A program made the position numbers and the translations under genes. The notes under the pieces are model-generated. The model was not told where the DNA came from. It searched no databases and was given only the letters and a program-made list of their open reading frames with translations. A stretch of 64,000 nucleotides of DNA from positions 3,348,001 to 3,412,000 of the forward strand of contig NZ_CP015596.1 of assembly GCF_001644575.1 (NCBI RefSeq), written 5' to 3'. This DNA comes from Mycobacterium adipatum. Lineage in GTDB: Bacteria; Actinomycetota; Actinomycetes; Mycobacteriales; Mycobacteriaceae. Shown in pieces: positions 42,800 through 64,000 of the stretch. The first letter of the stretch is position 1; every line of letters starts with the position of its first letter.

Positions 42800-42802
42800 A
42801 CG

Positions 42803-43411: not shown

Positions 43412-44194
43412 GTGACCCCGCCGCCGGTCCCGTCGGAAGGGCCACTGCCCGTCAATGACGCGCCCTACACGATGGTGCTTTATCAAGATCCGAAGACCGG
43501 GCAGCGGGTGCGGACCCGTCTCACACCTGAGGTTTCGCGTGTGTCATTTGAGCTATGCAGGCCTATCCGGAGTTTCCCGGCTTACCGGGGTCGCCGTTCC
43601 CATCAAGGCAAGTACTGGTTCTCGCGTTCACAAGGCCATGTCAGCTTTGAGTCGCGGTTCGAGATGACTGCCCTGATGACGGTCGACTTTCGGGGCGAGG
43701 CAATCGCGGTCAGCTCCAATCCGTTTTGGCTGCTGTGGCCGAAGGGCCAGACGCACCACCGGCACGCCCCGGACTTTTTCATCCGAAGACGCGACGGATC
43801 GGCTCTCGTTGTCGACGTCAAGCCGGCAGATCGTCTCCGCGAGAAGGATCGGCTCCAGCATCAACGCACGCGCGATGTATGTCGCGAGTTGGACTGGGAG
43901 TACGAGGAATTCACTACGATAGACAAGACTGCAGAACGCAACCTACGTCTGCTATGCGCCTACCACCATCCGCGGTTCGCGCCGTCAGCAGAAGCACGAT
44001 CCGCTATCGCGATCTGCGTGAAGCGATCGGGGCGCAACGGCGTGCAGTTCGGCCAGCTGATCGACAACGCCTCGGACGGTGCTGAACTCGACGAGAACCA
44101 TCTCATCTGCAGCACGTACCACATGATCTGGAACCGAGAGATTCACGTCGACCTGGCCCGCCCGCTGACCTGGACCACGGTGATCACCTCATGA
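43412..44194 (+). CDS. tnsA: TnsA-like transposon endonuclease
   Basis: 260 residues from GTG 43412, preceded by GGAGACGGCA; starts at 43280 or 43472 are possible. Restriction-like nuclease residues are visible: SFESRFEMTAL (Glu80/84), HAPDFFIRRRDG (Asp121) and LVVDVKPAD (Asp135, Lys137), the E-D-xxK pattern of TnsA. It cuts the 5' ends of the transposon, partnering TnsB. The C-terminal part is helical. It overlaps tnsB by ATGA. TnsA presence points to a Tn7-like, cut-and-paste element, not Tn5053/Tn402. Confidence 0.85.
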   Translation: MTPPPVPSEGPLPVNDAPYTMVLYQDPKTGQRVRTRLTPEVSRVSFELCRPIRSFPAYRGRRSHQGKYWFSRSQGHVSFESRFEMTALMTVDFRGEAIAVSSNPFWLLWPKGQTHHRHAPDFFIRRRDGSALVVDVKPADRLREKDRLQHQRTRDVCRELDWEYEEFTTIDKTAERNLRLLCAYHHPRFAPSAEARSAIAICVKRSGRNGVQFGQLIDNASDGAELDENHLICSTYHMIWNREIHVDLARPLTWTTVITS

Positions 44195-46254
44195 TCGAAC
44201 TGCATATCGGCGACATCATCGAACTCCGTGGCCAGAGCTGGCATATCCGCGACAGCGACGGACTGGCCCTTCGACTCAAATGTCTCGATGACGGCAGCGA
44301 CCTGACCTTGCCGGTAGCGATGTTGCTCTGCGACGACTCCTTCGTCGGTCCCGACGCCTCTGGACCAAGTATCGCCGATCAGAGGCTGCTCGACCTCGCC
44401 ACCGACGAACAGCGACGAGATGCCCAGTTCTGGTATGAGCACCTCTCCGGCATCAAACACGCCATCGAACAGCCGGCTCAAGGACAAGCCATTTCGGGTG
44501 CCCCGATAGTGACTGTACAAGAACGACTTTCGGATAAAATATCCGAGCTACGAACCCTAGGGCGGCCGGTCTCCATGACCACCATGTGGCGCAAGTGGCA
44601 ACGCTTCAACAATGCGGGCCTGCTCGGATGTATCGATCAGCGGGGTATGCCGGGTCATGTCCGTCTGTCCGGGGTGCACGAGCGTGTGATCGTCGTCCTG
44701 GAGATGGTGAAAGCGCACTACGTAGACAAGTCGACGCCTACCAAGAAGCAGATCCTCGAAATCGCAGAGCGCCGCCTTCGTGACGACAACGTGCCGGTGC
44801 CGTGCAGGTCATCGTTGTACGCCCTACTCGCCGCACTTGACCGCGGTGAGCACACCACCGGTGACGCGACGTCGCGCCGCAGTCACGCGAACAGCCCCAA
44901 CCGAGCGTTCTCGAAGATTGTCGCGTTGTATCCAGGCGAAGAAGTGCAGCTCGACTCAACACCACTGGACGCAATGGCCTTACTGCCCGATGGTCAACCA
45001 TGCCGCATCGATTTGGCTGCCGGCATCGACGTCGCAACACTGAGCATCACCGCGGCAATTCTCCGCCCGAACGCCTGCAAAACTGTGGACGCTATCGAAC
45101 TCTGGGCCAACTCCTGTATCCCGCAACAGATGTTGCCAGGCTGGATTGAGAATATGACCGTCGCACGAAGTTACCTGTCGGACAAGCTATCCCCCCAGAT
45201 CGATCTCGATAGGGCACTCGAAAACAAACCCATCATCGATGTGCGGGGTGTCGTAGTTGACCGTGGCAAGATCTTCGTCTCACCGGTCTTCGAACGAGCA
45301 ACGGAACTTCGGGGAGTGCACCCTCGGGTCGCACCTCCGCACCAGCCCACCGCCAAGCCTCATATCGAACGCTTGCTCAAGACCATCGGCGACGACTTTG
45401 TCCGATGGATTCCGGGATACAAGGGACGCTCGGTCAGCCACCGGGGCCGAAACCCGGAGAAGGATACTGTGTGGCCGCTGTTTGTACTCCAGGCGCTGCT
45501 CGACGAATGGGTCATCACGGTGTATCAGAACCGTCCCCACTCGGGGCTTCACCTGACAGCGGCCCCTCGGATGCAGCTCTCTCCCAATGCCATGTATCGA
45601 GCGATGTCGGAGATGACACCAACTCCAGTACGGACGATGACACGCGACGATTGGATCTCGCTGAAACCACACGAGTTTCGTCGTATCAATCGCTATGGCG
45701 TCAACTTGGAGAACCTCGTGTACAACTCCGACTCGCCACGCTTTCACCAGATGCGACGAACGAAATCGTTGAATTCCAAACAGAATGGCAAGTGGGAGGT
45801 GCGCTACGACCCCACCAACCTGATGCAAATCTGGGTGCGAGACGAATCCCTAGTCTTCGACTCAGAGGGTCAGCGCAAAGTCGAAGACAATGGCTGGATC
45901 GAGTGCCGCTGGGTTCTCGCCGACTATGCGACCATTCCATTCGGAATCGACATGGTCAAAGCGATCCGTCGGGACATGAGTAAGAAACCAACCGACAAAG
46001 AAGTGCTCAGGCGCGCGGAGCAGATTCATCGTCAATTGCTCGGCGGCCCATCGGAACCGAAACCTCGACCGCTTTCCCGTGCCGAAGCGTCGGCCGGGCG
46101 CGCCAACCTCGCGCGACAAGAGCTCAGCGGCGGCCCTCCCGCTGAGGTCGTTGCGCCCGGACGAAGCGACGACACTCCGACACCGCCGGTTGTTCAGCCT
46201 ACGCTCGGACCCGTTGAGCCCATGCGTCCGATGCGTCTGTCGGAAGGGTGGTGA
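44191..46254 (+). CDS. tnsB: TnsB-like DDE transposase (Mu/rve integrase fold)
   Basis: 687 residues. N-terminal DNA-binding HTH regions (about 110-230) precede the rve core: first Asp in EEVQLDSTPLDAM (about 253), second Asp in GVVVDRGKIFVSP (about 356) and Glu in QPTAKPHIERLLKTIG (about 391), the D-D-35-E spacing. A Mu-type C-terminal beta barrel follows (YGVNLENLVYNSDSPRF, VRYDPTNLMQIWVRD). It cuts and joins the 3' transposon ends and binds repeated end sites. Second gene of the tns operon. Confidence 0.92.
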   Translation: MIELHIGDIIELRGQSWHIRDSDGLALRLKCLDDGSDLTLPVAMLLCDDSFVGPDASGPSIADQRLLDLATDEQRRDAQFWYEHLSGIKHAIEQPAQGQAISGAPIVTVQERLSDKISELRTLGRPVSMTTMWRKWQRFNNAGLLGCIDQRGMPGHVRLSGVHERVIVVLEMVKAHYVDKSTPTKKQILEIAERRLRDDNVPVPCRSSLYALLAALDRGEHTTGDATSRRSHANSPNRAFSKIVALYPGEEVQLDSTPLDAMALLPDGQPCRIDLAAGIDVATLSITAAILRPNACKTVDAIELWANSCIPQQMLPGWIENMTVARSYLSDKLSPQIDLDRALENKPIIDVRGVVVDRGKIFVSPVFERATELRGVHPRVAPPHQPTAKPHIERLLKTIGDDFVRWIPGYKGRSVSHRGRNPEKDTVWPLFVLQALLDEWVITVYQNRPHSGLHLTAAPRMQLSPNAMYRAMSEMTPTPVRTMTRDDWISLKPHEFRRINRYGVNLENLVYNSDSPRFHQMRRTKSLNSKQNGKWEVRYDPTNLMQIWVRDESLVFDSEGQRKVEDNGWIECRWVLADYATIPFGIDMVKAIRRDMSKKPTDKEVLRRAEQIHRQLLGGPSEPKPRPLSRAEASAGRANLARQELSGGPPAEVVAPGRSDDTPTPPVVQPTLGPVEPMRPMRLSEGW

Positions 46255-46257
46255 ACC

Positions 46258-47256
46258 TTGGCATCACCGACAACCCGCGAAGAGTGGCGCGAGTACTGCA
46301 CCTACGAGCCCACCCCGGACTCGCAGCGCCCCTCGTTGAGTGCGGACGAGATCAAGGCTCTCGGCACCGTCGAGCGGTCGGCGTATAACGAACGCCGCAT
46401 CGACTACCTGAACGAGGAACGCGTGTTTCCCACCCGGGATCTCACCCGCATCCTCAACCACGCACGGCGACTGCTTCGCCGATCACGAGCCAAGAAGTTC
46501 GTGGCCAGGCCCGGTATCCGAGTATCCGGGGAACCCAGGACCGGCAAAACCACCGATGTGATGGCCGCCGGCAAGCGACTGGACGCAGAAATACGACGGA
46601 CTTGCGGCAGGGAGAACGATCTGTCCTTCCTTCCCGTCGTCTACACCACCATCGCCACGGCGACAACGACGAACAAACTCTGGGTGCGCCTCGCCGACTT
46701 CGTCGGTGCACGCGAGCTGCGAGGTAGCAATGCCGACGAGCGACTCGTGGACCTGGCGCGACTGCTGAAGAGCCTCGGCACCAAGTTCGTCATCCTCGAT
46801 GACGTCCAACGCCTCAACACCGATCGCGCAGCAGGAGCCGAAGTCGCCGACAACATCAAGACCTTCGCCGAAAACCTCGATGCAACAATGCTCTTTGCAG
46901 GAATTTCATTGGAGACCGCTCCCCTGTTCAGCGGCGAGAACGGAGAGCAGTGGCGCAAACGTACCCGGCCCATCAACCTGAGCAACTACTCACTGTCGAA
47001 TGACGCCGACCATAAGGAGTGGTTGCAGCTCGTCGCATCCTTCGAACGCATTCTTCCCCTCCCCCTGCATGAACACGGAATGCTCGAACGGCATGCGGAC
47101 TACCTCTACCACCGCACCGGCGGCTCCATCGCATCCTTAAGCGATCTGATTATCGATGCCGCTACCGACGCCATCGACTTCGGTACCGAAGCGATCACGT
47201 TAGACCTCCTCGACTCGATTGCGATCGACGACGTGGACCCGGGGGTGGCCCGCTAA
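46258..47256 (+). CDS. tnsC: TnsC/TniB-like AAA+ ATPase
   Basis: 332 residues from a TTG start 3 bp after the tnsB stop. Walker A is SGEPRTGKTTDVM (about residues 86-98) and Walker B is KFVILDDVQRL (about 174-184); a sensor region LDATMLFAGISLE follows. The ATPase links target choice by TniQ to the TnsA-TnsB transposase and gives target immunity. It overlaps tniQ in TAATG. Confidence 0.9.
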   Translation: MASPTTREEWREYCTYEPTPDSQRPSLSADEIKALGTVERSAYNERRIDYLNEERVFPTRDLTRILNHARRLLRRSRAKKFVARPGIRVSGEPRTGKTTDVMAAGKRLDAEIRRTCGRENDLSFLPVVYTTIATATTTNKLWVRLADFVGARELRGSNADERLVDLARLLKSLGTKFVILDDVQRLNTDRAAGAEVADNIKTFAENLDATMLFAGISLETAPLFSGENGEQWRKRTRPINLSNYSLSNDADHKEWLQLVASFERILPLPLHEHGMLERHADYLYHRTGGSIASLSDLIIDAATDAIDFGTEAITLDLLDSIAIDDVDPGVAR

Positions 47257-48179
47257 TGCCATCCCGTTCCGAATTACCACTGACGCCCCCAGTGGGAATC
47301 CGTCACAGCCAACGGCGACTACCGGTACCGCTGTCGCCGATGAAATCTGAGACGCTGAAAAGCTACCTCCGACGGCTCACGGATCAGAATCTTTTGCGAC
47401 CCGGCTGGTTGCCTCGACTCGCCCGGCATCGCCACTTCGTTGCAGACCTCGTCGAGTTAACCGGTTTCACAGAGCGCGGGCTGGTCGCGGCACTCCCAGA
47501 ACTGCGAACCCCGCAGGCAGTTGAGCGATGGCCGCACCTGGTCGGCCACGTCTCCAAACGGGCGAGCACCCGATCGGCATGCACACACTGCGCCGCCGCC
47601 AAGACTCACGGCCGAACGGAAGTTGTGACTGTCTTCGCTAGCCATGAACAAGTGATCTGCACCGCGCACCAGCAGTGGACAGGCAGTTCTGCACTCAGAT
47701 TTCCTGTTCAGGAACAGTTTTCAGTACGCAACTGTGTCGACGTCTCAGACGCACACCGCGAACACCTTCAACTCATCCGACGATGGGGCCGCGGCCCCGT
47801 GTATAGCTGCTTCTTTGCCGCCATCCGCTGTTTTACTCAGTGGTCACACTGGCCGGCCGTATCCCGAGCACCTAGTATCCAGCGTCGCAGGGAACGGCTC
47901 GATATCCCCGATGACGCACCACCAACGATTGCCCGACAGGTCGCCGCCTGGTACCCGAGCGCGGTAGCGCTAACAGACCTCATCATCTCGCTACGGCACG
48001 ACTTCGCGAAAGAGGGTAGGTCATCGGCCGCGAAAATCGTTGCAAGCTCGCACATTCGACTCAGAAGCATCTTTCCCGACTTATCCCCGAGCGGCGCATC
48101 GGACCACTTCCGGCAGGCAATACTAGGCGAACTAGACACTCCCCCAGATGAAGTCGAAGTCGCACCGAGCAACCGATGA
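47256..48179 (+). CDS. tniQ: TniQ/TnsD-like target-selection protein
   Basis: 307 residues, coupled to tnsC by TAATG. It has the TniQ opening PLSPMKSETLKSYLRRLTDQ then NLLRPGWLPRLARHRHF, a zinc knuckle (CTHC near residue 109 paired with CTAH near 138), and a C-terminal HTH-like stretch (PPTIARQVAAWYPSAVALTD). TniQ recruits the transposition machinery to a target, either a fixed attachment site or mobile DNA. Only one TniQ is seen and no Cas genes are near, so this is not a CRISPR-guided element as far as the window shows. Confidence 0.85.
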   Translation: MPSRSELPLTPPVGIRHSQRRLPVPLSPMKSETLKSYLRRLTDQNLLRPGWLPRLARHRHFVADLVELTGFTERGLVAALPELRTPQAVERWPHLVGHVSKRASTRSACTHCAAAKTHGRTEVVTVFASHEQVICTAHQQWTGSSALRFPVQEQFSVRNCVDVSDAHREHLQLIRRWGRGPVYSCFFAAIRCFTQWSHWPAVSRAPSIQRRRERLDIPDDAPPTIARQVAAWYPSAVALTDLIISLRHDFAKEGRSSAAKIVASSHIRLRSIFPDLSPSGASDHFRQAILGELDTPPDEVEVAPSNR

Positions 48180-48206
48180 CTGAGTCCCAGCGGTACAGAG
48201 AGGACG

Positions 48207-48554
48207 ATGGTGGCAATGTCAAGCCGAAGCTGTGAGGAGCCCCCTACCCCAATCGGATCGCTCTGCAGTGAATGGGAGTTGGACCAAGGCATCGCATCCC
48301 GCGTCGTCTACACACCCGACCGGTTCCCCGCCGGATGCACGGCTGGAGTCCGTATCAGCGCGATTCAGGTCGAAGACGGCAGCTTTGAGACTGCTGCCGA
48401 CGTTCCCCACATCTACCTCGAGTTCCACCCTGATTCTGGACTCACCATTGAGAACGCGCGGGCTCTCGCGCTCGTCCTCACCGAGTCCGCCGCTCAGCTC
48501 GAAAGTTGGATCGAGATGTTCGGTGCCGTCGCCGATCCTGGTGCCGAACGTTGA
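48207..48554 (+). CDS. Hypothetical protein (DUF6907-like)
   Basis: 115 residues with the ribosome site GAGAGG. A beta-rich core (GVRISAIQVEDGSF, VPHIYLEFHPDSGLTIENAR) precedes the helix ALALVLTESAAQLESWIEMF. The pattern resembles DUF6907-type small proteins of actinobacteria (weak). The stop overlaps the antitoxin TTG start (TTGA). First gene of the accessory block after tniQ. Function unknown. Confidence 0.65.
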   Translation: MVAMSSRSCEEPPTPIGSLCSEWELDQGIASRVVYTPDRFPAGCTAGVRISAIQVEDGSFETAADVPHIYLEFHPDSGLTIENARALALVLTESAAQLESWIEMFGAVADPGAER

Positions 48555-48721
48555 TCGATCCCTTGCTTCCGCGCATCAGCATCACCGAACTACGCCGACA
48601 TTTCAGCCGGTTCATCACTGAAGCCGAACAAGGGCGGACTTTCGTGATCACCCGGCAGGGACGCGAGGTTGCCTTGCTCGTACCTGCCGGGCGCTTCGCC
48701 GACGAAGATCTGCATCAGTGA
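48551..48721 (+). CDS. Phd/YefM-type antitoxin without visible toxin
   Basis: 56 residues from TTG 48551, in a TTGA overlap with the preceding gene. The sequence ISITELRRHFSRFITEAEQG then RTFVITRQGREVALLVPAGR is the complete N-terminal DNA-binding fold of Phd/YefM antitoxins. The tail is very short. No intact VapC, Doc or RelE toxin follows; only a VTYTSSSRPK-like stretch at 48718 hints at a lost PIN toxin. A second, broken copy lies at 52900-53015. Confidence 0.85.
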   Translation: MIDPLLPRISITELRRHFSRFITEAEQGRTFVITRQGREVALLVPAGRFADEDLHQ

Positions 48722-48791
48722 CGTATACGTCGTCCTCACGTCCCAAGGAGCGCTCGCCTACCAAAAGAGGACCACCAGCAGTATTGGAGTC

Positions 48792-49463
48792 ATGCAACAC
48801 CCAACATCCCGACCGAACTTCGACCACAGTCCCTGCTACCGCGACGGTCTGCACCCGCCTACGAAGCCCGGGCGCCAGTGGTGCCGCGCTCATGGTCCGG
48901 CCAGTCGCTCGCGAGGGTATGGCCAACCCGTCGCCGTGGCGTCACCGCCGCAGACCCAGCAAGACGACACCGGTCCTGCCGAGGTGCGCCGACGTCGTGC
49001 AGAGGCCGCCAAGCAGTACCAGCCCAGCAGGGTTCGGCTTCTGCTGGTGGCCCAAGCTCCACCTGACGCCGACGACCGCTACTTCTACTTTCTCGACGTA
49101 GCGCAGCACGACTGGCTGTTTCGGGCGGTCGCGCGGGCAATCCTGCCCCACGTAGAGCTGACCCGGACCAACAAGGCATCCGTGCTGGCGCAGCTGCGCG
49201 ACCGCGGCATCTTCCTGATCGACCTCAAGCCCGATCCCGTGGACGGGTCCGACCTGTCGCCCTACGTGCCCGCGCTCCTTGACCGGGTTGCCGAGCTGGA
49301 ACCCGAACGCATCATCCTGATCAAGGCCGATGTGTTCCGCGTGGCATATCCCGCGTTGGCCGCCGCAGGCCTTCCGGTCAGCCAGGTGCGGATCCCCTTC
49401 CCTTCGTCTGGGCGACAGAGAGAGTTCGCGGTCGCGTTCGGTCGAGCTCTCGCAGGCGAGTAA
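48792..49463 (+). CDS. Uracil-DNA-glycosylase-superfamily-like protein
   Basis: 223 residues if begun at ATG 48792; the true start may be later, since conservation-like sequence begins at about SRVRLLLVAQAPPDADDRYF. The order VAQAPP, FYFLDVAQHDWLFRAVAR, GIFLIDLKPDPVDG and RIPFPSSGRQREFAVAFGRA resembles uracil-DNA-glycosylase-fold proteins that handle damaged or foreign DNA. A catalytic role is not proven. A Cys-containing N-terminal extension (CYRDG, WCRAHG) may be spurious. Confidence 0.65.
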   Translation: MQHPTSRPNFDHSPCYRDGLHPPTKPGRQWCRAHGPASRSRGYGQPVAVASPPQTQQDDTGPAEVRRRRAEAAKQYQPSRVRLLLVAQAPPDADDRYFYFLDVAQHDWLFRAVARAILPHVELTRTNKASVLAQLRDRGIFLIDLKPDPVDGSDLSPYVPALLDRVAELEPERIILIKADVFRVAYPALAAAGLPVSQVRIPFPSSGRQREFAVAFGRALAGE

Positions 49464-49503
49464 CAGTTCGCGATGTCACCGTGCCTCGGTAGCGTCGCTT
49501 CCC

Positions 49504-50358
49504 ATGGGACCGGATGACTTCTTCGAGGAAATCGAAACGGTCAGTCCATGGTCGAGTGAACCGTCCATCACGACGAAGCTCCGGAAGGACCTGCTGAACG
49601 AGCTGCGCGCCGGCCCCGTAGCCGGCGCGGACGACCTCGACGCGGCGATCGCGCTGACCCACTTGGTGTGGGATAACCTGACTGCGTTCGGCACCGACGG
49701 CAGCAACGCGCTCGACGACAAGGAAATCGCCCTTGCCCAGCGCGCCCTCACCGCGACCCTCTCGCGAATCGGCATTACGCTGAGCTTCCCCTGGCGGGAC
49801 TTCGCCACCTTCAAGACGCATTGGTTGCGTAACGGCTGCTACAACTCGTGGCAAGCCCGCCGAGACCTCCTCAACGAGCTGTTTTCCCCAGTGCAGGCGG
49901 AGCTGGATCAGCAGGAGGAGGATCAGTTCCGCGCCGTGAACGCTGAGGCGGTGTCGCCGCACACCAAGACGGGCTGGCCGAAGGTTGACGAGGAGCTCAC
50001 CGAGCTTCGCCGGCGTTTCCGCACCGCCACCACCACGCAGGACTATCGCGACGTCGGCAACCGCGCCGTTGGCGTGCTTGAGGCGTTGAGCCGCACCATT
50101 TACGACCCCTCCGTGCATCTCCGAGACGGCGAGACCGAGCCGCCGGCCGATAAGACAAAGCAGCGCATCGGCCGCTACGTCGAGGACTCCTTGGCGGGCA
50201 AGAACAACGAGGCGATCCGCGGCGTCGCGAACAAGGTGATCGAGCTGGCACACAGCGTGAAGCACTCCACCGCGCCTACACGGCGGGAGGCCGGAATCGC
50301 GGCGGATTCGGTGATCATGCTCGCGAACATCTTGCGCCGGGTCGATCAAGACTTCTGA
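49504..50358 (+). CDS. Hypothetical protein, HEPN/Abi-like helical protein
   Basis: 284 residues from ATG 49504. It is largely alpha-helical. The second half, VGNRAVGVLEALSRTIYDPS plus EDSLAGKNNEAIRGVANKVI and AGIAADSVIMLANILRRVDQ, has the look of abortive-infection proteins that bear HEPN-type helical bundles; a clear RNase RxxxxH motif is not seen. It stands alone between defence-type genes. Family assignment is tentative. Confidence 0.5.
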   Translation: MGPDDFFEEIETVSPWSSEPSITTKLRKDLLNELRAGPVAGADDLDAAIALTHLVWDNLTAFGTDGSNALDDKEIALAQRALTATLSRIGITLSFPWRDFATFKTHWLRNGCYNSWQARRDLLNELFSPVQAELDQQEEDQFRAVNAEAVSPHTKTGWPKVDEELTELRRRFRTATTTQDYRDVGNRAVGVLEALSRTIYDPSVHLRDGETEPPADKTKQRIGRYVEDSLAGKNNEAIRGVANKVIELAHSVKHSTAPTRREAGIAADSVIMLANILRRVDQDF

Positions 50359-50438
50359 ATGGGTAAACGCAGCACGGGACCTGACACACGCAGCGCGGCG
50401 CTCCGGTGCTGTCGGTCAGCGCTTGTAGGCTGCCGCCC

Positions 50439-50807
50439 ATGCCAGAGGAAGACGCCAAGTTCGGCGACGTCTACTGGGTGACCAAGGAGGCCACCCAGAA
50501 TCCGGCGCGCGTCGGCAAGCCCGCACGTCCGATGGCATGTATGGCCGAGCGCCGCGAGGACACGACATGGGCCGGGCTGCCCCGGATCACCAGCGACGAA
50601 AAGCCTGAAGACCTGCCCAGCAAGGCGATGCCGGAGATTCATACGACCCGCTTGAACACCGCAGGGTGGTGGACGGCCCGGTACATCCACCCGGTCTACA
50701 AGGCGGTCACGGGGCATGCCGGAAAGTGCGAGTATCTCGGCCAGCTGCCCAAAGATGAGGTGACGGTGGCCAGGGAGGTCTACCGGGGTCGGCTGTACGA
50801 CTCGTGA
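50439..50807 (+). CDS. Hypothetical protein
   Basis: 122 residues from ATG 50439. The opening FGDVYWVTKEATQNPARVGK then PARPMACMAERREDTTWAGL could be an SH3-like barrel as in MazF/PemK relatives, but catalytic residues cannot be matched. It may pair with the HTH/metalloprotease genes that follow on the same strand after 49 bp. Confidence 0.5.
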   Translation: MPEEDAKFGDVYWVTKEATQNPARVGKPARPMACMAERREDTTWAGLPRITSDEKPEDLPSKAMPEIHTTRLNTAGWWTARYIHPVYKAVTGHAGKCEYLGQLPKDEVTVAREVYRGRLYDS

Positions 50808-50856
50808 CCTGTACTCTGGCGATTCTTTTTGCAGCGACGACCGAAGAAGGTGAGCA

Positions 50857-51735: not shown

Positions 51736-51739
51736 TCCG

Positions 51740-52753: not shown

Positions 52754-53053
52754 CCACGGAGGGAAGGCAGACGTTTGCCGGTCGTGATGAGAAGCACCTT
52801 GTCGCCGTGGCCCATCATCGGTACGCGTAAGTCGCGCACCGCGCCGGCAGAAATTGTTCCTATCAAGGACGAGTTCCATAGTGTCATCAATGGATCCGGG
52901 TGCGTCGAAATCTCAGCTGCATGTTTAGCGAAGCGATCCAGGGCCGGACTCCTGTCGTCGCCCGGCAGGGCGGGAAGTCGCCGTGTTCGTTGCCGCCAAA
53001 ACACTCCTTGAGCCGCATCGTACCTCCGATCAAGCAGAAGCCCGCAACCTTGG
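52754..53053. other. Gap between the metalloprotease and drmC
   Basis: 300 bp holding a decayed Phd antitoxin (52900-53015). Nothing else was recognised. It separates two converging units, the plus-strand accessory block and the minus-strand DISARM operon. Confidence 0.6.
52900..53015 (+). pseudogene. Decayed Phd-type antitoxin
   Basis: One frame reads RRNLSCMFSEAIQGRTPVVA then RQG; after a frameshift near 52970 another reads REVAVFVAAKTLLEP. Joined, they match the Phd pattern of the intact copy at 48551 (ITEAEQGRTFVITRQGREVA). No toxin remains. Its position just beyond drmC suggests insertion debris. Confidence 0.7.
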
Positions 53054-55799: not shown

Positions 55800-58700
55800 C
55801 AGTCCTCATCCCCCACTGGCAGGGTCCACCGTGGTGCTCCGTCGGGAACGTGTGCGAACAGCCGCTCCGGGATCGGGCTGACGAGGATGTTGATCTCCGG
55901 CTGCACTTCCCGCATCGAGTTCGCGACGACGAACGGAGCCTGATTCGACGACCCGACACCGGCTTTGGCGTTCTCGGGGCTCATCAGCAACGGCAGGTAC
56001 TTGTCCCCTTCCCCGGTGCGCTCGTACACCAGTGTCCTGTGCATGTCGCTGGCGCGGTTGGCGCGGTCGACCCACCGATCGATGCGGTTGACCAACCGGT
56101 CGCTGGCATACTTCACCCTTGCATCATCCTGCGCCGCAGCCGAGATCCGAGCTTTGAGTCGTTCGGCCACCCGTTCGACCACGTCCCGGTGCTCCTTGAT
56201 CCGCCAGGCACCGCGTTCCTGGGAGAGCCCGTCGTCGAGGGGTGCCTGTATGACGCGGGCCACGCTGACCAACAGCCCGTCCAATCCTCGATCCAGCGAT
56301 GTCGGCGAGTACGGCGTCACCGACAACGCTTCCACCTGAGAGTAGAACGTCTCGTGGTAGTGCCGGAACTGTTCGTAATGTGCCAGGTCTCGGGGCCGTG
56401 CCCAATTGCCCAGCGTCACAACCAACCCGGGCCGGGAGGAGTCGCGGCCGACGCGGGAGGACGCTTGAATGTACTCGGCGGTGTTCTTGGGCTGACCAAC
56501 GACCAGCATCAGCCCGAGTCGTTGCACGTCGACACCGACCTGCAGCATCGAGGTGGCCAGTACCACGTCGAACGGGGCCTCCTTGCGAGTGGGCACCTTC
56601 TTGCCGTCGCGCTGTGCTGCCATCCGAGCCTGGAAGGCTTCGGTGGTGTCATAGTCGGGGTCGAAGTCCAACCCCAACCGGTCGAGGGTGCGGCCGATCT
56701 CCGACGACGCGATCCGTGCGGTGAGTTCACCGGTGTTCAGCAGACCGAACGCGGCGCCGTGGCGGGGCGGGAATCCGGAGTCTTTGCGGGGGCGCTTGAT
56801 TCGGTTCTGTACGTCATCACCCATGTAGCGGGTCATGCCCGCCAGCTCGCGGGTGGCGTTGAAGTACCCGACCAGCGTCAGATAGGGATCGGCGGCGATG
56901 CCGCTGCGGTCCAACAGCAGCTGCCCGGCCGAGAGCAACACCTCCGAGACGCGAATCTCGGCGCTGGCGAGGCGCACGCCTTGCGCGCTCACTCCGATGT
57001 AGCGGCGGCCGGGTGTTGTCTTGGTGATCGGGATTTCGCGGGAGAAGTAGGTGTCAGCGACGTCGAGCACCTGCGGCGGAAAGATCTCCAGGCGCCGCCC
57101 GTACAGACCCCGCACCTGTTCCTGCGCATTACGAACGGTGGCGGTGGACGCGACAATCAGCGGCCGCACTGGCTTTCCGTCGGGTTGTTCCCAGGACGCC
57201 AGGGTCTCCACCGCCACCTCGAACAGGCCAACGGCGGTGCCCAACGCCCCTGTGATCAGGTGCAGCTCGTCCTGGATGATCAGATCCGGTGGCCGCAGCC
57301 GGTTCACGGGATGAACTGTTGCCGCGGGATATCCGGCCACGGCCGGATGCGCATTGGAGATGTTGCACGCCGCATAGTCGGCATGGACGTAGCCGTGGCG
57401 GGCGCAGCGCCGCCCGACGTAGCCGAACAATGCTGCGGCTTCGCCTTCGCGGGCCAGGCGGGCGAACTTGTCGACGGTGGCGATAACGAATGCCGGTGTC
57501 AGCCGGTAAATCTCCTCGTCCACGGTCAGAATCGGCAGACCCTCACTGACCTGCCCGCCTTTGGCGAACGGACAACGCGCAAGGTCATCGCCGCAGTAGA
57601 CGAACACCCGCCGGGCCGTAGCGTCGGCCTTGACCTGTGCCGCGGTGATCGGGGTGCCACACCAGGGGCAGCGCTGGACCTGGAGCACGGTCAGCCGATG
57701 CGACCCGTATTCGTTGGCCTTCGTCAGCTGTTCGTCGGCTTCCTCGAAGCGTTTCGGGCTCACGTCGGTCCCCACCCACAGCCCGATGCGGAACGGACCA
57801 CTGCCCCAGGTGGTTTCGTCAGCTTGACGCGCGAGCTCGGCCGCGCACACCAGTGCGGTGGCCCGCTGGAACTGCTGGGCGGTGAGCAGCCGCAGGGTGT
57901 AGCGCATCAGCACCGCTACGCCGTCGCGGCCATCCAGCGGGCCGTCGGTGGAATCGACGAGACCCTGGCGACGCCGGATCGCGAAGGTGAACGCGGCCAG
58001 TCCGAGGTAGGCCTCGGTCTTGCCGCCACCGGTCGGGAAGAACAGCAACTCGACTTGCGCCAAGTGCGCGGCGCTGCGCAGCGACGCTGCGGGGTCGGTG
58101 AGGGCTCCAAGTTGCATCAGAATGAACGCCAACTGGAAGGGCCGCCACGATGCCGCCTTCGCACCCGCCTCGGACACCTTCTTTTGCGCATCGGAGATCG
58201 ACAAGGCCGGATCCGATGCCCGCAAGGCAGCCACCTGGGAGGCGATGCGCTGATCGCGCATGACGGCGTTCATGAACTGAAAGCAGCGCAGCGCTTCAGC
58301 ATCGGCCGCAAGATGCTCGAGCCCCGCTTGCAGCCGCTTGTGCGCGCGGCGGGCTTCTACCAGTGCCAGCTCGGCAGTATCGCGCAGATGCGGCGGTAAC
58401 TGCGTCGTCGCTTCTTCTTGGGTCCCGAGCCAGTCCCCGTAGCCGGCGATCAGAGGCTGCAGGCCGGCGCGGACCTGTTCTGCGGTCGAGGTCGCCAGAG
58501 AATCCATGGACAGCAGTGCGTTCTCGACGTCACGCGCCTGCGTCTGCGGAGTTTCAGCGACCGGCAACCACGTGGTCCACACTGCGGTTGCGCGTCGCGA
58601 GCCCTTCTTGACTGTCCAGCCCACCGAGCAGGTCCGACCGATCACGTACTCAAGCCGGTTGCGGTACTGCAGGTTAAGGCGTTGCACCTCGGGGTCGTGT

Positions 58701-59512
58701 TCCGGCAGGTCTTGCTCGAGCACATCGCACACCGGGAGAAATACCTCCGCTCCCCCGGAATCGATGTAGAGCTTGGTTTGGAACATCCACATGCCGATCG
58801 GGATCGGCATCGGTGTCTCGCGGTCGTTACACAACGCGATCTCGATGAGCACCCTTCCAAACGTCTCGTCATCGTAGCGGTCAACCCGGAGGCAGATGGT
58901 GTCGCGCAACGGGAACGTCGTCGTCTGCCCGGCGGCGAGATCGGCAAGGCGGACGGCGCGGGATTCTTCGACCGGTATACGTTGAAAATGGCGGATCGGA
59001 CGGCCCGCCTTGGTGACCTTGTCGGTCTGCACCGACTCATACGTTCCCCACGAGGCCGTGACCGTGAACGCCTCCAAATCCGGCGGTACTTGAAACCTCA
59101 GACCCATCGACGAGGGAATCATCAACCCCTGCTTGGGTGCTCGGTCCTCAGCATCGTCGTCGGCAGCATCGGCCTCACTGTCGTCAGCGGCAAACGCGGG
59201 TATGCCCCGTCCCTCAGCCGCGGCATTCTCGTCAGCACGAGCTTCGGCCAGCTCGCCACGCTCGGTGCCTTCGGCAGCGTCACCGTTACCGGCTGTGGCG
59301 CCGGTGAGCCGCACCGGCGCGATGTATCCGACCAAGTACTGGGAGCGTGGACTGAAGGGCAACACCTCGTCGGGGCCATGGATGGGTCCGAGTAGCTCAC
59401 GTTCCAGAATATCGACCAAGTTCTCTCGTACCGTGAACGACGAACCGTCCGGCTCGAAAGTCAAGTCGTAGGACGAGGCCGGTTCCTTCGCTTTTTCAGT
59501 GGCGCTGGTCAT
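55799..59512 (-). CDS. drmA: DrmA, SF2 helicase of DISARM
   Basis: 1237 residues, normal for DrmA. Helicase motifs run in order: Walker A LLFFPTGGGKTEAYLG (about residue 488), DEAD-box-like IQDELHLITGALG (about 746), IVASTATVRNAQEQVRGLYG, VLATSMLQVGVDVQRLGLML (about 990) and QASSRVGRDSSRPG. A zinc knuckle CPWCG sits near residue 615. The N-terminal part is DrmA-specific. DrmA with DrmB senses or remodels incoming phage DNA. Its ATG overlaps the drmMI stop (TAATG). Confidence 0.95.
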   Translation of the reverse strand: MTSATEKAKEPASSYDLTFEPDGSSFTVRENLVDILERELLGPIHGPDEVLPFSPRSQYLVGYIAPVRLTGATAGNGDAAEGTERGELAEARADENAAAEGRGIPAFAADDSEADAADDDAEDRAPKQGLMIPSSMGLRFQVPPDLEAFTVTASWGTYESVQTDKVTKAGRPIRHFQRIPVEESRAVRLADLAAGQTTTFPLRDTICLRVDRYDDETFGRVLIEIALCNDRETPMPIPIGMWMFQTKLYIDSGGAEVFLPVCDVLEQDLPEHDPEVQRLNLQYRNRLEYVIGRTCSVGWTVKKGSRRATAVWTTWLPVAETPQTQARDVENALLSMDSLATSTAEQVRAGLQPLIAGYGDWLGTQEEATTQLPPHLRDTAELALVEARRAHKRLQAGLEHLAADAEALRCFQFMNAVMRDQRIASQVAALRASDPALSISDAQKKVSEAGAKAASWRPFQLAFILMQLGALTDPAASLRSAAHLAQVELLFFPTGGGKTEAYLGLAAFTFAIRRRQGLVDSTDGPLDGRDGVAVLMRYTLRLLTAQQFQRATALVCAAELARQADETTWGSGPFRIGLWVGTDVSPKRFEEADEQLTKANEYGSHRLTVLQVQRCPWCGTPITAAQVKADATARRVFVYCGDDLARCPFAKGGQVSEGLPILTVDEEIYRLTPAFVIATVDKFARLAREGEAAALFGYVGRRCARHGYVHADYAACNISNAHPAVAGYPAATVHPVNRLRPPDLIIQDELHLITGALGTAVGLFEVAVETLASWEQPDGKPVRPLIVASTATVRNAQEQVRGLYGRRLEIFPPQVLDVADTYFSREIPITKTTPGRRYIGVSAQGVRLASAEIRVSEVLLSAGQLLLDRSGIAADPYLTLVGYFNATRELAGMTRYMGDDVQNRIKRPRKDSGFPPRHGAAFGLLNTGELTARIASSEIGRTLDRLGLDFDPDYDTTEAFQARMAAQRDGKKVPTRKEAPFDVVLATSMLQVGVDVQRLGLMLVVGQPKNTAEYIQASSRVGRDSSRPGLVVTLGNWARPRDLAHYEQFRHYHETFYSQVEALSVTPYSPTSLDRGLDGLLVSVARVIQAPLDDGLSQERGAWRIKEHRDVVERVAERLKARISAAAQDDARVKYASDRLVNRIDRWVDRANRASDMHRTLVYERTGEGDKYLPLLMSPENAKAGVGSSNQAPFVVANSMREVQPEINILVSPIPERLFAHVPDGAPRWTLPVGDED

Positions 59513-62500
59513 TACAGCAGTGTCCCTTGATCGTCTGATGCGCTCTTACCGCGACGGCCTTTGCTTCTCGTTGGCCGAGTCTGCTTTGCTTCCTCGGCGG
59601 CCCGCCGGTGGTTCTCCTCCAACAGCCGATCCAGGATCTCCACGCGCGCTGCGGGACTCACCGTCCAACGCTGCATTTTTCGATAGGTGTGAAAACCATG
59701 TCCCAGCGAGATGTCCGACCAGCCGTAGGAATCTGCTACGGCGTCGTCAAGCTCGACGTGGATGTCCCGCAAACGTCCAATTTCCGAATCTGTGACGCCG
59801 TTGACACGCGGGTCATTGATCAGATTGTAGGTGTCCGTCAAACTAACGCTGCGGCGCAGCATAAATTCCCGGCGCTCAGCATCAAGAGTCCGGCCGACCC
59901 GGTGGATCCAGTCCGTAGGTTCCGGGCTCGGGAATGTTTCGAACACGTCGGTCGGCGTGTACCTTACCCCTGCCCCTGCCCCGATCGTAGACGCGTACTT
60001 CACAGCCCAAAGATAATGAAACGACGATGAGAGTACCGCCTCGACCGCATACGAGCCCGTCGCGAACACGATCGTTTGTTCACTGAAGGTCTGCTTAGGT
60101 GAAACACGAACCGGCATAACGGTATTGCTGACTCGAGCGATTGCAAGTACCTCATCAAGTTCGGAGATGGCCTTCCGCAGTCCAGGGCGGCTATTCCAGA
60201 ACTTCCACCACTCGTAGACCATTCGCGGGTATTTCGTGCCATCCTTCTGTTCCCGCTCGGGCCTCACCCGTTCCTGCACGCGCTTCCATGGGACCGAGTA
60301 TGACGATGCGGTGTCCTCACCGCGTTCTCCAAAATCGATGATCCAGCGGGAAGCAGAACAGTCTGGACTTGAGTTAAGGTCTTCCCCGTTCAAATACGGA
60401 AAGACGACCTCTTGGTAGCGGGGATCCTTCGTGATCCAAGTCTCGGCTTCTTCAGGATCGAGGATAAACCCCTTGCCGAGAACCACGCAGCCCTGGAAGG
60501 CAATTCTGCCATTCTGTTTCAGCGCAATGGGATTACCCTCGACACGTCCTGCCGATTCGAGTAGCGACGTAATGTGACGTACGTAGGTGTTGTCGCTCAT
60601 TCGCGGAACATCCTGAGCTACTGATCCAGTAGTGCCCCACACTGCAGCGTACTCGAGGGCTGCAGTAGAAACTGGCCACTTTCGGCTTTGAACGGACCTG
60701 GTGATAGTGAAGCCGGATGCGACCATTTGGTCCAACCCCACCTCTCGCGTATCACCCTGCGCGATGCTGTTGGTGGCGATAAGCCCAATGGTGCCGTTCT
60801 CCGAGAGCAACGAATGCGCTCGGAGAAAGAAGTAGGCCACCTGATCGGCATTTCCGGTCACCCCACTTGCGGTCACATTTACTAGCCATTCACGGACGTC
60901 AGACCCCATCGCGGGCGTGATCTTCTTCCCGCCGAGAAACGGTGGGTTTCCGATGATCGAATCGAAACCACCATGCTCTACGACGACATCAGGTGCTTCG
61001 ATCACCCAGTGATTGGGTTGCCACCTCCGGTAGTCCGTGGGAACAGTTGGCTTAAGTCCTGAATCGATAATTGCGTCCAGTATTGCCGGTTCGGGACGAC
61101 CCGACTCGGGATGTGCAGCCTTGACTGCAATCCGCAAATTCTCATAAGCGTCATCGAGAGCCTTGCCTGGCTTCGCGCCGAGCGGCAGGCCAGCCGCCAC
61201 GATGCCATCGGCTACCGAGCGCAGTTCTGCTGTGACTTCCCGCAATTGAGCAAATTGCCTGCGTTTCGCTGTACTGTTGCGGGCGGGGTCGTTCTCGTCT
61301 ATCTCGGTTGCGAGTTTGCGTCGTAGATCAGCAGCCTTCTTAACGATCGAGTTGATGTCGACATCGAAGATGTCAAACATGTCTTTCGTCGACACCCGAG
61401 ACGGATCAATGTGCAGCTTGCGCAGTTGGTCAAGGCTGGTGACACCAAGCAGCGAGTTGCCGTGGAAGATCTTGTCGTCGACAAAGGAGAAGGGCAGATC
61501 GCGGTCCAAGGACACCAGCCAGAGCGACAGTTTGCACATCTCGACGGCCATGTCGTTGATGTCGGCGCCGTAGAGGCAGTTCGCGACGACCTCGCGGATG
61601 GCACGGCGGTGTAGATCACTGCGGTTGGCGTTGGCGGTATCTTCAGCGGTCCACGCTTCGACTACCCGCTCAGCGAGGTAGCTCGCCGCCGAGACCAGGA
61701 ATGCACCTGAGCCACAGGCGATATCGGCGACCTTCAAGCTCAGCAAGTCATCTGAGGACTTGAGTTTCCACTCCGATTCGTCAGCGGTCTGATATGGACC
61801 AGGCGCATAGCACAGCGGTTGCAGCGCGTGCAGGACGACTTCTCTGGCCAGCGACTTGGGGGTGTAGTGCGCTCCGGCGTTCTTACGGGACGGGGTTTCC
61901 TTCACCATCAGCCCGCCGTCGAGCACCACGAACGGGCGACTCCGCAGATCCTGACGCATGATTCCCAGCCAGGGCAGCACGCGTTCACGCAGCGCTGTGT
62001 CGTCGCCGACCGCTTGCGCGAGGCCGCTGATCACACTCGGCTCGATCTGGGCGCCAATGCCTTTGGCGATTGCGGCAGCCGACTGGGGTTTGGCTGAGGG
62101 TTGATCGCGTTCGATGTATGCCCGGAGTGCGTCAGCCAGCTTCTTCGGCGCAGCGTTAGCCGCTGCAAGCCGTTCCAGTTCCGACAACGAGATCTCTGGC
62201 TCTTCGCCGCGGGCACCCTGCAATCCGAGGTAGGTCTCAGCGACGGTGGCAGCGGTGTAACCCAGCAGACCCTCGTAGATGTAGCCGATCTGTTCGACAT
62301 CGATGTCGCGGAACGAGATTCGGCGTACTTCGTTACCTTTGAGGACTGCCTGCTGGACCGAGCGCAGTGCGTGCAGCATCACTCGGTCGGACACAGTGAT
62401 GGCCAAGGTGCCGTGTGCGGTAAGCGCGGTCAGGAACGGGAATCGGTCGGGGTCGAAGAGGGAACCGCCGTAGGCAGGAACCCGCATGTTCTCGAACGAC

Positions 62501-63600
62501 GCTCCTCCGTAGAGCGCCTGACTCGTGGCGAGCAGCCGGTGCCACGTGAGCGAGGTGGCATCGAGAGCCTCTTCACTTTCCTCGGCTTCGCGTGCTTGCA
62601 GCCGGTCCAGTTCGCGGGAGATGCCGTACCCCTGCTCGAACAACTCCCCCGACGGCAGCAAGCCGCGTTCCTCGGCGAACAGCAGGAACACGATCCGCAT
62701 CATGATCGTCACCGCGGCTTCATAGCTTTGGTGGGTGTCTGCAGGTAGCGGATCGGGTTCGCCGCGTTGTTGAGCGTCGCGGGCCGATTCGGAGAACGAC
62801 TGGATGAGCAGTTCCACCGCGCGACGCACCTGCGCGCCAAGGGCTTCGGTGATCTCCTCGGCAGCGGCCACGGATTCCTCGAACAGCACCGGCAGCCGCT
62901 CGTCTTCCTTGCCGCCGATGATGTGCTGGCGCGAGATCAGCATCAGGAACGCGTCGCGGGTGCGAGGTTCCTCCACCCAGGTCAGTGCGTCGACGACTCC
63001 AGAGGCGGTCATGGCGCCGGCACGTGCGCACACCAGCGCCCACCAGCGTCCGTCGGTGACAATGCCGATCGGAATGTCGTTCTCGCGCAGCAGCGCTTCC
63101 ATTCGGTCCACCGGAGTGGCCGCCCACAAGTCGCTGGGAACCTGACGCAATGAGTCGACAGGGTCGATCACCGACACCAGCGCACCGATGGCTCCATCGG
63201 GGGTCAGCAGGGCTGCCTCGGCGCCGACGGTGACCGCACGGTTGGGTGACTGAGCCGTGATGCCGGCGACGGGTCCCCAGGATAAGGATTCGGCCCAGCC
63301 GACGACATCGCGTAATACGGTCTCGACCCATTTGTCGCGGGCGACGCGGTACGCGTCGTCGGTCGTGCCGTCGTCGCCGGTGGCTCGGTCTGCCGTCTCC
63401 CATGCGGCTTCGAAGTCCTTGCGGGCGTAGAGCAGTGCCTCTTTGCGGGTGTCATCCAAGGCTGGCATGCCCTGCGGCCATACCCGCTTGAGCGGTGCGA
63501 TCGCCAGGAACGGGCCGTCAGTGTCGACGAGTTCGAGCCACGCATGGTGCAGCTCAGAGGCAGTCGGTGTTGAACGTTGCCGGGGTGTGCGGGGCGCCAT
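59512..63600 (-). CDS. drmMI: DrmMI, N6-adenine methyltransferase of class 1 DISARM
   Basis: 1362 residues. Motif I is VADIACGSGAFLVSAASYL (about residue 625) and motif IV is IIGNPPFLGGKKI (about 880), the NPPF signature of N6-adenine methylases. The last 350 residues look like a target-recognition domain of Eco57I/TaqI type. It methylates host DNA as the self mark. Presence of drmMI with an upstream drmD identifies class 1 DISARM. The 5' end overlaps drmD by ATGA (63600). Confidence 0.93.
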   Translation of the reverse strand: MAPRTPRQRSTPTASELHHAWLELVDTDGPFLAIAPLKRVWPQGMPALDDTRKEALLYARKDFEAAWETADRATGDDGTTDDAYRVARDKWVETVLRDVVGWAESLSWGPVAGITAQSPNRAVTVGAEAALLTPDGAIGALVSVIDPVDSLRQVPSDLWAATPVDRMEALLRENDIPIGIVTDGRWWALVCARAGAMTASGVVDALTWVEEPRTRDAFLMLISRQHIIGGKEDERLPVLFEESVAAAEEITEALGAQVRRAVELLIQSFSESARDAQQRGEPDPLPADTHQSYEAAVTIMMRIVFLLFAEERGLLPSGELFEQGYGISRELDRLQAREAEESEEALDATSLTWHRLLATSQALYGGASFENMRVPAYGGSLFDPDRFPFLTALTAHGTLAITVSDRVMLHALRSVQQAVLKGNEVRRISFRDIDVEQIGYIYEGLLGYTAATVAETYLGLQGARGEEPEISLSELERLAAANAAPKKLADALRAYIERDQPSAKPQSAAAIAKGIGAQIEPSVISGLAQAVGDDTALRERVLPWLGIMRQDLRSRPFVVLDGGLMVKETPSRKNAGAHYTPKSLAREVVLHALQPLCYAPGPYQTADESEWKLKSSDDLLSLKVADIACGSGAFLVSAASYLAERVVEAWTAEDTANANRSDLHRRAIREVVANCLYGADINDMAVEMCKLSLWLVSLDRDLPFSFVDDKIFHGNSLLGVTSLDQLRKLHIDPSRVSTKDMFDIFDVDINSIVKKAADLRRKLATEIDENDPARNSTAKRRQFAQLREVTAELRSVADGIVAAGLPLGAKPGKALDDAYENLRIAVKAAHPESGRPEPAILDAIIDSGLKPTVPTDYRRWQPNHWVIEAPDVVVEHGGFDSIIGNPPFLGGKKITPAMGSDVREWLVNVTASGVTGNADQVAYFFLRAHSLLSENGTIGLIATNSIAQGDTREVGLDQMVASGFTITRSVQSRKWPVSTAALEYAAVWGTTGSVAQDVPRMSDNTYVRHITSLLESAGRVEGNPIALKQNGRIAFQGCVVLGKGFILDPEEAETWITKDPRYQEVVFPYLNGEDLNSSPDCSASRWIIDFGERGEDTASSYSVPWKRVQERVRPEREQKDGTKYPRMVYEWWKFWNSRPGLRKAISELDEVLAIARVSNTVMPVRVSPKQTFSEQTIVFATGSYAVEAVLSSSFHYLWAVKYASTIGAGAGVRYTPTDVFETFPSPEPTDWIHRVGRTLDAERREFMLRRSVSLTDTYNLINDPRVNGVTDSEIGRLRDIHVELDDAVADSYGWSDISLGHGFHTYRKMQRWTVSPAARVEILDRLLEENHRRAAEEAKQTRPTRSKGRRGKSASDDQGTLL

Positions 63601-64000
63601 CAGCGCAGCCCTCCTTTCGCGTCCTCAGGAGTGAGGGCGAACACCACGGCGGCGGCGGTGGTGTGGGGTTTGACGTCGGCGTAGCGGTCGGCGATGGCCG
63701 CGGTCTCGCGGGCCTCTTCGTCGTCAAGTTCGTCGAGACGGCGCTCCATCGAGTCGATGTCGCGGCGCCACTGCTTCTGCTGCTCGTCGGCCCAGAGCAT
63801 GGCTTGGGCTTCGGCTTCCTTGCTGCGCAAGAGATCCAGTGATTCCCGCAGGTTGGTTCGGAATGCGGCGAAGATGTCACGCGCCCGCTGGATGTCAGCG
63901 GCCCGGCGTTTGTCCAGCTGCTCCAGCACCCGAGCGTGTCGGCGGTCGGCTCGAGCGTGCATAGACTCCTCCAACCGAGCGCGCAGCGGCGCGTCCGCCG
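63600..64000 (-). CDS. drmD: C-terminal end of DrmD-like protein (runs off the window)
   Basis: The frame is open through the window end, so only the last 133 codons are seen. They are highly charged and helical (RADRRHARVLEQLDKRRAAD, KQWRRDIDSMERRLDELDDE), a coiled-coil-like tail. The gene directly upstream of drmMI in class 1 DISARM is drmD, an SNF2-like helicase; assignment rests on position and overlap (ATGA with drmMI), as no helicase motif lies inside the window. TTG 63974 is not a real start. Confidence 0.7.
   Translation of the reverse strand, partial: ADAPLRARLEESMHARADRRHARVLEQLDKRRAADIQRARDIFAAFRTNLRESLDLLRSKEAEAQAMLWADEQQKQWRRDIDSMERRLDELDDEEARETAAIADRYADVKPHTTAAAVVFALTPEDAKGGLR

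Follow-up and report, generated by a model that had tools for sequence, protein, structure and literature searches.

Here we describe a 52.8-kb island in Mycobacterium adipatum in which a Tn7-like set of tns transposition genes and a DISARM (defence island system associated with restriction-modification) locus form one mobile unit, inserted beside the sequence that we identify as dif, the chromosomal Xer site. The window, by which we mean the whole stretch of 64,000 nucleotides under analysis, covers positions 3,348,001-3,412,000 of contig 1 (5.80 Mb) of a genome of two contigs and 6.05 Mb, and the DNA examined comprised this window together with 20 kb before it and 100 kb after it. Coordinates follow the numbering of the window, values above 64,000 continuing beyond it on the same contig. 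The features that carry the argument are the following.

39573..39594, + strand: chromosomal dif core TTGACATAATGTAGATTATCGG, whole and outside the element, XerD half first and XerC half toward the element
39638..39642, no strand: left copy of the 5-bp target duplication GCGGC (right copy at 92,469-92,473, outside the window)
39643..64000, no strand: part of the element inside the window, drawn from ends, boxes, duplication and far-end search
39643..39861, + strand: left (tnsA-side) end, beginning TGTCCGATCCGGAACTAG, with four TnsB-type boxes at 39650, 39712, 39801 and 39841
39964..41109, + strand: XerC-like tyrosine recombinase just inside the left end (PF00589, 90.4 bits; TIGR02224 XerC, 157.8 bits, below the equivalog cut-off of 335)
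43412..44194, + strand: tnsA (NCBIfam NF033179 TnsA_like_Actin, 184.3 bits, cut-off 110)
44191..46254, + strand: tnsB transposase (PF09299 Mu-transpos_C, 30.2 bits, cut-off 21.7)
46258..47256, + strand: tnsC, a TniB-type ATPase (PF05621, 43.7 bits, cut-off 22.4)
47256..48179, + strand: tniQ, putative target selector (PF06527, 16.1 bits, below the cut-off of 27, E 0.018)
53054..53758, - strand: drmC (PADLOC DrmC, E 5.4e-91)
53748..55799, - strand: drmB (PADLOC DrmB, E 4.4e-63)
55799..59512, - strand: drmA (PADLOC DrmA, E 3.7e-304)
59512..63600, - strand: drmMI (PADLOC DrmMI, E 0)
63600..65,873 (63600..64000 in the window), - strand: 3' part of an interrupted drmD, encoding the C-terminal part; the N-terminal part lies at 78,040-79,506

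An earlier note on this DNA had read a complete tnsA-tnsB-tnsC-tniQ operon, and the profile matches bear this out, with tniQ, which falls below the Pfam cut-off alone, recognised by profile-profile comparison. Against a set of related proteins TniQ gave a probability of 99.7%, and the first member of that set (locus L109) itself passes PF06527 at 28.1 bits; no match was found among solved structures. The longest tnsA frame starts at 43,280, and the start scored against NF033179 is 43,412. No second selector, TnsD- or TnsE-like, was recognised in the element, where the small genes were scanned only in part. For comparison we used 248 genomes of the genus (G handles), 233 of them of good quality, and a set of loci (L handles), several of which belong to the same genomes; the 78 named loci were scanned for dif. 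Elements are called own-type when their TnsB scores at least 1000 bits against that of M. adipatum. The nearest named TnsB relatives, 95-96% identical, are those of Mycolicibacterium sp. GF69, M. austroafricanum DSM 44191, Mycobacterium sp. ST-F2 and M. kyogaense NCTC 11659. In the six nearest relatives TnsC is 97-99% identical, while TniQ reaches 92% in G039 and 68-70% in the other five, which might be the pattern expected of the part that contacts the host. At L046 (G131), an own-type element closed by both ends and a duplication, neither tnsA nor the XerC-like gene was found.

The whole element runs from 39,643 to 92,468 (52,826 bp), so that the earlier placing of its start at 43,412 has to be moved outward, and its right end lies 28 kb past the window. 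It is bounded by TGT/ACA inverted repeats, TGTCCGATCCGGAACTAG at 39,643 and the inverse ending at 92,468, with GCGGC outside both. Four copies of a 21-bp box stand in the first 219 bp of the element (39.65-39.86 kb) and four in its last 136 bp (92.33-92.46 kb), with none between 39.9 and 92.3 kb. Because the motif was drawn by eye from these very ends, its presence there is expected, and the test lies in its absence from the 52 kb between. A single extra match at 121 kb, outside the element, is no more than chance would give, for 3-5 matches per 184 kb were obtained from five shuffled sequences; weak matches (4 mismatches) lie inside the elements of G019 (one) and G131 (two). In four relatives with TnsB 94-96% identical (G019, G152, G203 and G131) the match to the M. 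adipatum DNA begins at 39.53-39.64 kb, and a block of 128-136 bp at 92.33-92.47 kb is common to M. adipatum, G019, G039, G131 and G171. The ends, the 5-bp duplication and the repeated TnsB sites at both ends are thus as the earlier note had predicted. It had also named an end closing between 48.2 and 53 kb as the outcome that would part the tns genes from DISARM. No right end with GCGGC was found there at up to 10/20 mismatches; because boxes stand only at the two ends and 92,468 is the sole far end with GCGGC and fewer than 10/20 mismatches, no end closes in that interval. An exact 13-mer search for ends near 43.4 kb or 48-53 kb (41,000-43,500 against downstream DNA) was unhelpful, and it was the aligned relatives that placed the left end at 39,643. 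A clean empty site of a near strain was not found among the 41 genomes searched, in which long matches to the left flank are only 70-77% identical; G095 has dif without this element, with synteny kept on both sides (on the left up to 28.8 kb and on the right from 98.9 kb in our numbering).

That the tns genes and DISARM belong to one mobile unit, as the earlier note had supposed, follows from three elements in which matching duplications enclose both: GCGGC in M. adipatum, TCGGA in G036 and TCCGA in G020 (40,698 bp). Three further own-type elements are closed without DISARM, in G019 (24.3 kb, GTCAG), G131 (24.6 kb, CCTTC) and G171 (18.1 kb, CTTTT). All six duplications match at both ends and all differ, which argues for separate insertions. 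The G020 element seems to lie inside the left end of an older element, so that its duplication is part of a repeated motif. A small tns-only transposon adjoining an unrelated DISARM island is scarcely credible: it would suit G199, where DISARM occurs without tns genes, and is opposed by the box-free interior, the sole good GCGGC far end at 92,468 and the closing of three DISARM-bearing elements by different duplications.

DrmA (E<=1e-100) was found in 15 of the 248 genomes, and in six of these 15 (M. adipatum, G203, G039, G152, G036 and G020) it lies beyond an own-type tns operon on the same contig. Own-type TnsB was found in 10 of the 248, with DISARM in 6 of the 10 (hypergeometric P 3e-6, kinship uncorrected). 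In G199 the DISARM locus, at 86-90% DNA identity, stands outside such an element, 1.16 Mb from dif, and a TnsB of this family is absent from that genome at E<=1e-30. G207 and G006 have a DrmA of 87-88% identity, likewise far from dif; the transposon is therefore one carrier of DISARM and not its sole carrier, and the suggestion that it explains how DISARM spreads holds to that extent. Likewise, different borders for tns and DISARM, which the earlier note had set against a common unit, are seen in part in G199, while in M. adipatum the borders are common to both. Between G020 and M. adipatum TnsB is 64% identical and DrmA 87%, so that cargo and core have separate histories.

Judged by its sequence and position, the site next to the left end is dif: it is present in a single copy, lies opposite the origin and matches the suggested actinobacterial dif. 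We presume the assignment of its XerC and XerD halves, which was made by comparison with E. coli dif. The dif pattern (<=1 mismatch) occurs in 235 of the 248 genomes and in 226 of the 233 of good quality; 8 of the 235 have two or three matches and the rest, M. adipatum included, have one, while the reversed pattern gave no match in any of the 248 genome rows. The distance from dif to dnaA is 0.48 of the chromosome in M. adipatum and 0.457-0.556 in 21 of 21 genomes. TTGACATAATGTNNNTTATCGG stands before each of seven left ends compared, in G020 with one mismatch. The dif suggested for Frankia (Kono 2011), CACGCCGATAATGCACATTATGTCAAGT, contains the pattern on the other strand; by that paper's account no actinobacterial dif had then been confirmed by experiment. 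In M. smegmatis, cassettes flanked by dif are reported to be resolved by the host XerC/XerD (PMC4789726).

The spacing between element and dif varies little. Counted from the edge of the 22-bp dif pattern, own-type left ends stand at 48 bp in M. adipatum, 50 in G019, 52 in G152, 50 in G203, 52 in G131, 54 in G171 and 53 in G036, and two further own-type left ends at 49 or 56 bp (G020) and 62 bp (L164). All nine lie on the XerC side, with the tnsA end toward dif. On the XerD side, elements closed by matching duplications stand at 50 bp (G059), 49 (G113), 50 (G087), 54 (G086) and, in Nocardioides, 52 bp (L206). The TnsB branch of the XerD-side elements is 30-37% identical to the M. adipatum protein, and the tree does not place G086 and L206 firmly within it. 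At loci of other genera candidate TGT starts lie 36-57 bp from dif, and no far end with a matching duplication was found there within the stretches searched. A spacing of about 50 bp has also been reported for CRISPR-associated transposons (Benler 2021). At L098, the XerD-side element of G113, type I restriction-like genes, judged by eye from their translation, follow right behind tniQ.

Taken together, the sequences very probably describe a Tn7-like cut-and-paste transposon (TnsA, TnsB, TnsC/TniB and TniQ) that uses dif as its attachment site. An integrative element of the IMEX (integrative mobile element exploiting Xer recombination) kind, recombining into dif by host XerC/XerD with help from its own XerC-like recombinase, would account for the position of that gene about 320 bp inside the dif-side end. 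We hold it to be very improbable, for dif is single and whole, so that the far junction has no dif-like sequence; the near junction stands 48 bp off with a 5-bp duplication and TnsB boxes; and G131, without the recombinase gene, still has both ends and a duplication.

The search for TnsB returned 86 rows in 60 of the 248 genomes. Seven of the 10 rows of at least 1000 bits lie within 12 kb of dif and 9 of 10 within 100 kb, nine being on the dif contig; of the 43 rows at 200-1000 bits, 31 are on the dif contig, 27 come within 100 kb of dif and 24 within 12 kb; and below 145 bits, where 5 are on the dif contig, none of 30 lies within 100 kb. The middle class includes one cut-off own-type copy (G139), 208 kb from dif, and a broken copy in G082 accounts for three rows of 155-171 bits that belong to none of the classes, two of them 2.5 and 6.9 kb from dif. 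The own-type tnsB of G036 is 12.6 kb from dif because of a nested element; in G039 the tns genes are on another contig, and the dif contig ends 118 bp after dif. When the 78 named loci were scanned at <=3 mismatches, dif lay upstream of tnsB within the locus in 30, two of these (L189 and L190) being poor matches, and downstream in two more; the reversed pattern gave no match in any of the 78. The upstream matches, close to tnsB, extend to nine further genera: Corynebacterium, Enemella, Tersicoccus, Nesterenkonia, Kocuria, Propioniciclava, Nocardioides, Arthrobacter and Pseudarthrobacter.

The 94 TnsB rows compared by FastTree include 15 with less than 3 kb of upstream DNA, left undecided, and L157 and L158, labelled from their G copies. 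In this tree one branch (99%) holds 17 XerD-side rows, 2 XerC-side rows (the Arthrobacter group) and 4 undecided ones. The own type forms another branch, three rows of which are without dif in the locus. Some rows, above all the XerD-side row of G086, sit on long branches, for which reason we claim clustering and not a number of origins.

Dif-like sites also occur on plasmids. In a single case, that of pJ349-116, a conjugative plasmid of Arthrobacter, an element related to the XerD-side branch stands on the XerC side, 40 bp from TTGACATAATCATAATTATCGG, a dif-like site with whole arms and a different spacer. This element (L238:7109-11934) is closed, with 4,826 bp, the duplication ACTGC and ends differing at 5/20 positions; its annotation shows tnsA, tnsB, tniB and one short further gene, and a full tniQ is not annotated. 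No plasmid matched 39,643-48,179, the only TnsB relatives on plasmids, in 78 records, being below 60% identity, and no viral contig matched the TnsB patterns in a search that reached close relatives only. At L240:1447-1470, on pP4-4a of M. avium, a dif-like site (3 mismatches) is followed by a Phd/RelE pair and by a tns operon, after which come metal-transport genes. At L241 and L244 related tns operons of Pseudonocardia and Nocardia plasmids stand back to back with mobF relaxase genes, which are perhaps another target.

Several observations weigh against dif as the address or against the reading of single elements. The AlphaFold model of TniQ is poor (mean pLDDT, or predicted local distance difference test, 58). 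Two own-type elements do not close: in G203 the flanks, CCCGG and CCCTG, are one base apart, and in G152 the left flank is CCTGC and the right end found is flanked by GCAAT. In G176 the own-type tnsB and dif are 42 kb apart, and no dif was seen in the 10 kb of upstream DNA covered for M. septicum L161 or the 4.6 kb covered for L163, nor at the Streptomyces, Nocardiopsis and Nocardia loci. The end search, which allowed up to 8/20 mismatches between ends, also returned pairs with 7-8/20 for the XerD side of M. adipatum, for G152, G020, G091 and G220, and for second rows of M. adipatum and G059. We take such pairs as chance; the ends called in G087 themselves differ at 7 positions, and that call rests on the resemblance of its start to that of G113. 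Among ten plasmid-type loci (nine distinct, L118 and L239 being the same place) perfect arms occur in one (L238), a 3-mismatch match in one (L240) and none in eight; L245 likewise has no dif-like site. Finally, insertion is looser in a third TnsB branch, whose ends resemble TGTCCGTTCTCA: its elements lie roughly 300-735 bp from dif, facing either way, and are found at other places too.

The matching duplications of this third branch lie 305, 316, 317, 607, 734 and 735 bp from dif. In one version 14 loci, from 12 genomes, share a block of 10.26 kb (L107:4365-14628) with 99.8-100% identity over its main pieces, two copies being cut short; six copies lie about 300-600 bp from dif in either orientation, and the rest are far off or on other contigs, some of them plasmids. 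All copies except that of G220 run past the block, so that the true ends may be nearer dif. On this sequence evidence the block represents a recent spread with a loose preference for dif. Such looseness, with copies on plasmids and elsewhere, would suit elements that prefer the replication terminus, with its stalled forks or FtsK-loaded DNA, dif being merely nearby, and TnsE of Tn7 does prefer replicating DNA. A spacing of 48-56 bp in one orientation in eight own-type left ends, of 49-54 bp in five closed XerD-side elements, and of 40 bp between the closed plasmid copy and its dif-like site makes this explanation very unlikely.

In the mechanism that we propose, TnsB would bind the box arrays at both ends and, with TnsA, excise the element; TniQ, through the TnsC ATPase, would recognise dif, most likely bound by XerC/XerD; and the tnsA-side end would be set down on the XerC side, some 50 bp past the dif core. 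Because dif stays whole, the host should keep chromosome resolution. The island would then work as an exchangeable set of defence genes, among them DISARM, mcrBC and an OLD-type nuclease, beside which further elements stack. That dif is read while XerC and XerD occupy it has, in our estimate, roughly an even chance; this part leans by analogy on Tn5053, with its resolvase-occupied res sites, and on a suggestion by the authors of the IS1202 study. Alternatively, TniQ or TnsB may read dif as plain DNA, without Xer proteins, which would leave transposon and address unchanged. The dif arms are nearly constant across the genus, and TniQ/TnsD of Tn7 binds its att DNA directly; we consider this quite possible, if somewhat short of an even chance. 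The side of insertion follows the TnsB lineage and the plasmid site combines whole arms with another spacer, findings that fit, and do not prove, a reading of the arms or of proteins on them, and neither decides between the two. More broadly, and only tentatively, there may be a wide actinobacterial set of Tn7-like elements with Xer sites as sole address, in which TniQ-TnsC senses XerC or XerD on dif, the lineage sets the side, and one selector serves both chromosome and conjugative plasmids, where Tn7 needs two.

The structural hallmarks of a Tn7-like element are present: tnsA-tnsB-tnsC with a TniQ-family gene, TGT...ACA ends with multiple TnsB sites, a 5-bp duplication and a fixed distance from the attachment site. 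Measured against Tn7 as commonly described, the element shares these genes and ends and the nearness of the tnsA-side end to an untouched chromosomal site, and differs in its target, which is dif and not glmS. It resembles Tn5053/Tn402 in having one TniQ, a TniB-type ATPase and a recombination site as target. Tn5053 has no TnsA and brings its own resolvase and res, whereas the present element has TnsA and targets the chromosomal Xer site. According to a review (Annual Review 2024), the Tn5053/Tn402 "res site hunters" combine just these parts, with a site-specific recombination site as target, and Tn5053 is said to sense resolvase-occupied res sites; glmS, yhiN, comM, plasmid resolution sites, parE and tRNA genes are among the targets listed in its table.

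The nearest precedent is IS1202 at dif. ISAjo2/IS1202 (PMC10132070) is a 1.5-kb insertion sequence with a TnsB-like transposase only, TGT/ACA ends and a 5-bp duplication. It inserts next to dif and pdif, on the side of the XerC site and 5 bp away from it, and the authors of that study suggest that the transposase may meet XerC at dif. Unlike IS1202, the M. adipatum element is 52.8 kb long, has tnsABC-tniQ and large cargo, and belongs to a group standing about 50 bp from dif on either side according to lineage; unlike IMEX, its junctions lie outside dif, 48 bp away. The actinobacterial Tn7-like clade of Benler 2021 may contain these elements; by its authors' account, none of the clade's transposons had been characterised by experiment. 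The words dif, XerC, XerD and DISARM are absent from the main texts of Benler 2021 and Faure 2023, and no report of a full Tn7-like element at dif was among the top matches in the open-licence literature, subscription literature being outside the search.

Circular chromosomes with an Xer system must keep dif, which makes the site ideal as an address for mobile islands. If a Tn7-like machine reads it, the transposase superfamily would have a new kind of target, the strong variation of the dif neighbourhood between mycobacteria would be easier to understand, and actinobacterial genetics might gain a means of placing DNA at a chosen position. DISARM gains a concrete carrier, with islands stacking beside dif, and how TniQ proteins find recombination sites, a question since the res hunters, becomes testable. 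Were Xer sites the sole address, the surroundings of actinobacterial dif would be a standing docking port for defence islands, and a single selector would serve a safe chromosomal home as well as a plasmid vehicle.

The DISARM locus resembles class 1 systems, with drmA, drmB, drmC, drmMI and drmD all recognised, and it is broken in M. adipatum. The earlier account of drmC-drmB-drmA-drmMI-drmD on the opposite strand after the small genes is right in content and order, the order being that of typical class 1 systems; unlike these, the locus is carried by a transposon and its drmD, of which only the 3' part reaches into the window, is in two pieces. A 12.36-kb island (65,937-78,291) splits the gene, and with this insert DISARM spans 53,054 to about 79,506. 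The island contains two tyrosine recombinases (74,664-77,009 and 76,988-78,160), a type IIG restriction-modification gene and a PLD/SNF2 helicase gene, and ATC stands at both of its borders. In G152, G036, G203, G020 and G199 drmD is whole, a single frame of 1,182-1,262 aa spanning the island site.

From the left, the element is ordered as the XerC-like gene, tnsA-tnsB-tnsC-tniQ, small genes with an ImmA/IrrE-type gene, DISARM on the other strand and then the right-hand cargo, as follows.

51548..52753, + strand: ImmA/IrrE-type (Peptidase_M78) protein, PF06114 over cut-off
79,833-81,836, outside the window: OLD-type nuclease gene
81,885-83,096, outside the window: gene with sub-threshold Exo_endo_phos matches
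83,171-86,971: GTPase-like gene, assigned by eye
86,968-88,590: GTPase-like gene, PF01926 over cut-off
88,694-92,016, outside the window: mcrB- and mcrC-like genes

The XerC-like recombinase is 30-31% identical to two other matches in the same genome. Its gene occurs in seven of nine own-type relatives (G019, G152, G039, G036, G203, G171 and G020), at 68-97% identity. It was considered as the target reader and rejected, because it was not found in G131, G176 or the other lineages and is thus not generally needed.

Directly past the right end, at 92,469-92,520, lies a second sequence that looks like a transposon end and may be left over from an older element in the stack; G171 and G019 have one as well. 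To the left of dif, about 1 kb (27,758-28,827) matches, at 95-96% identity, DNA that in G095 adjoins dif and in G177 lies 8 kb from it; other shared stretches there are only about 74-84% identical, and this one is probably a small mobile piece.

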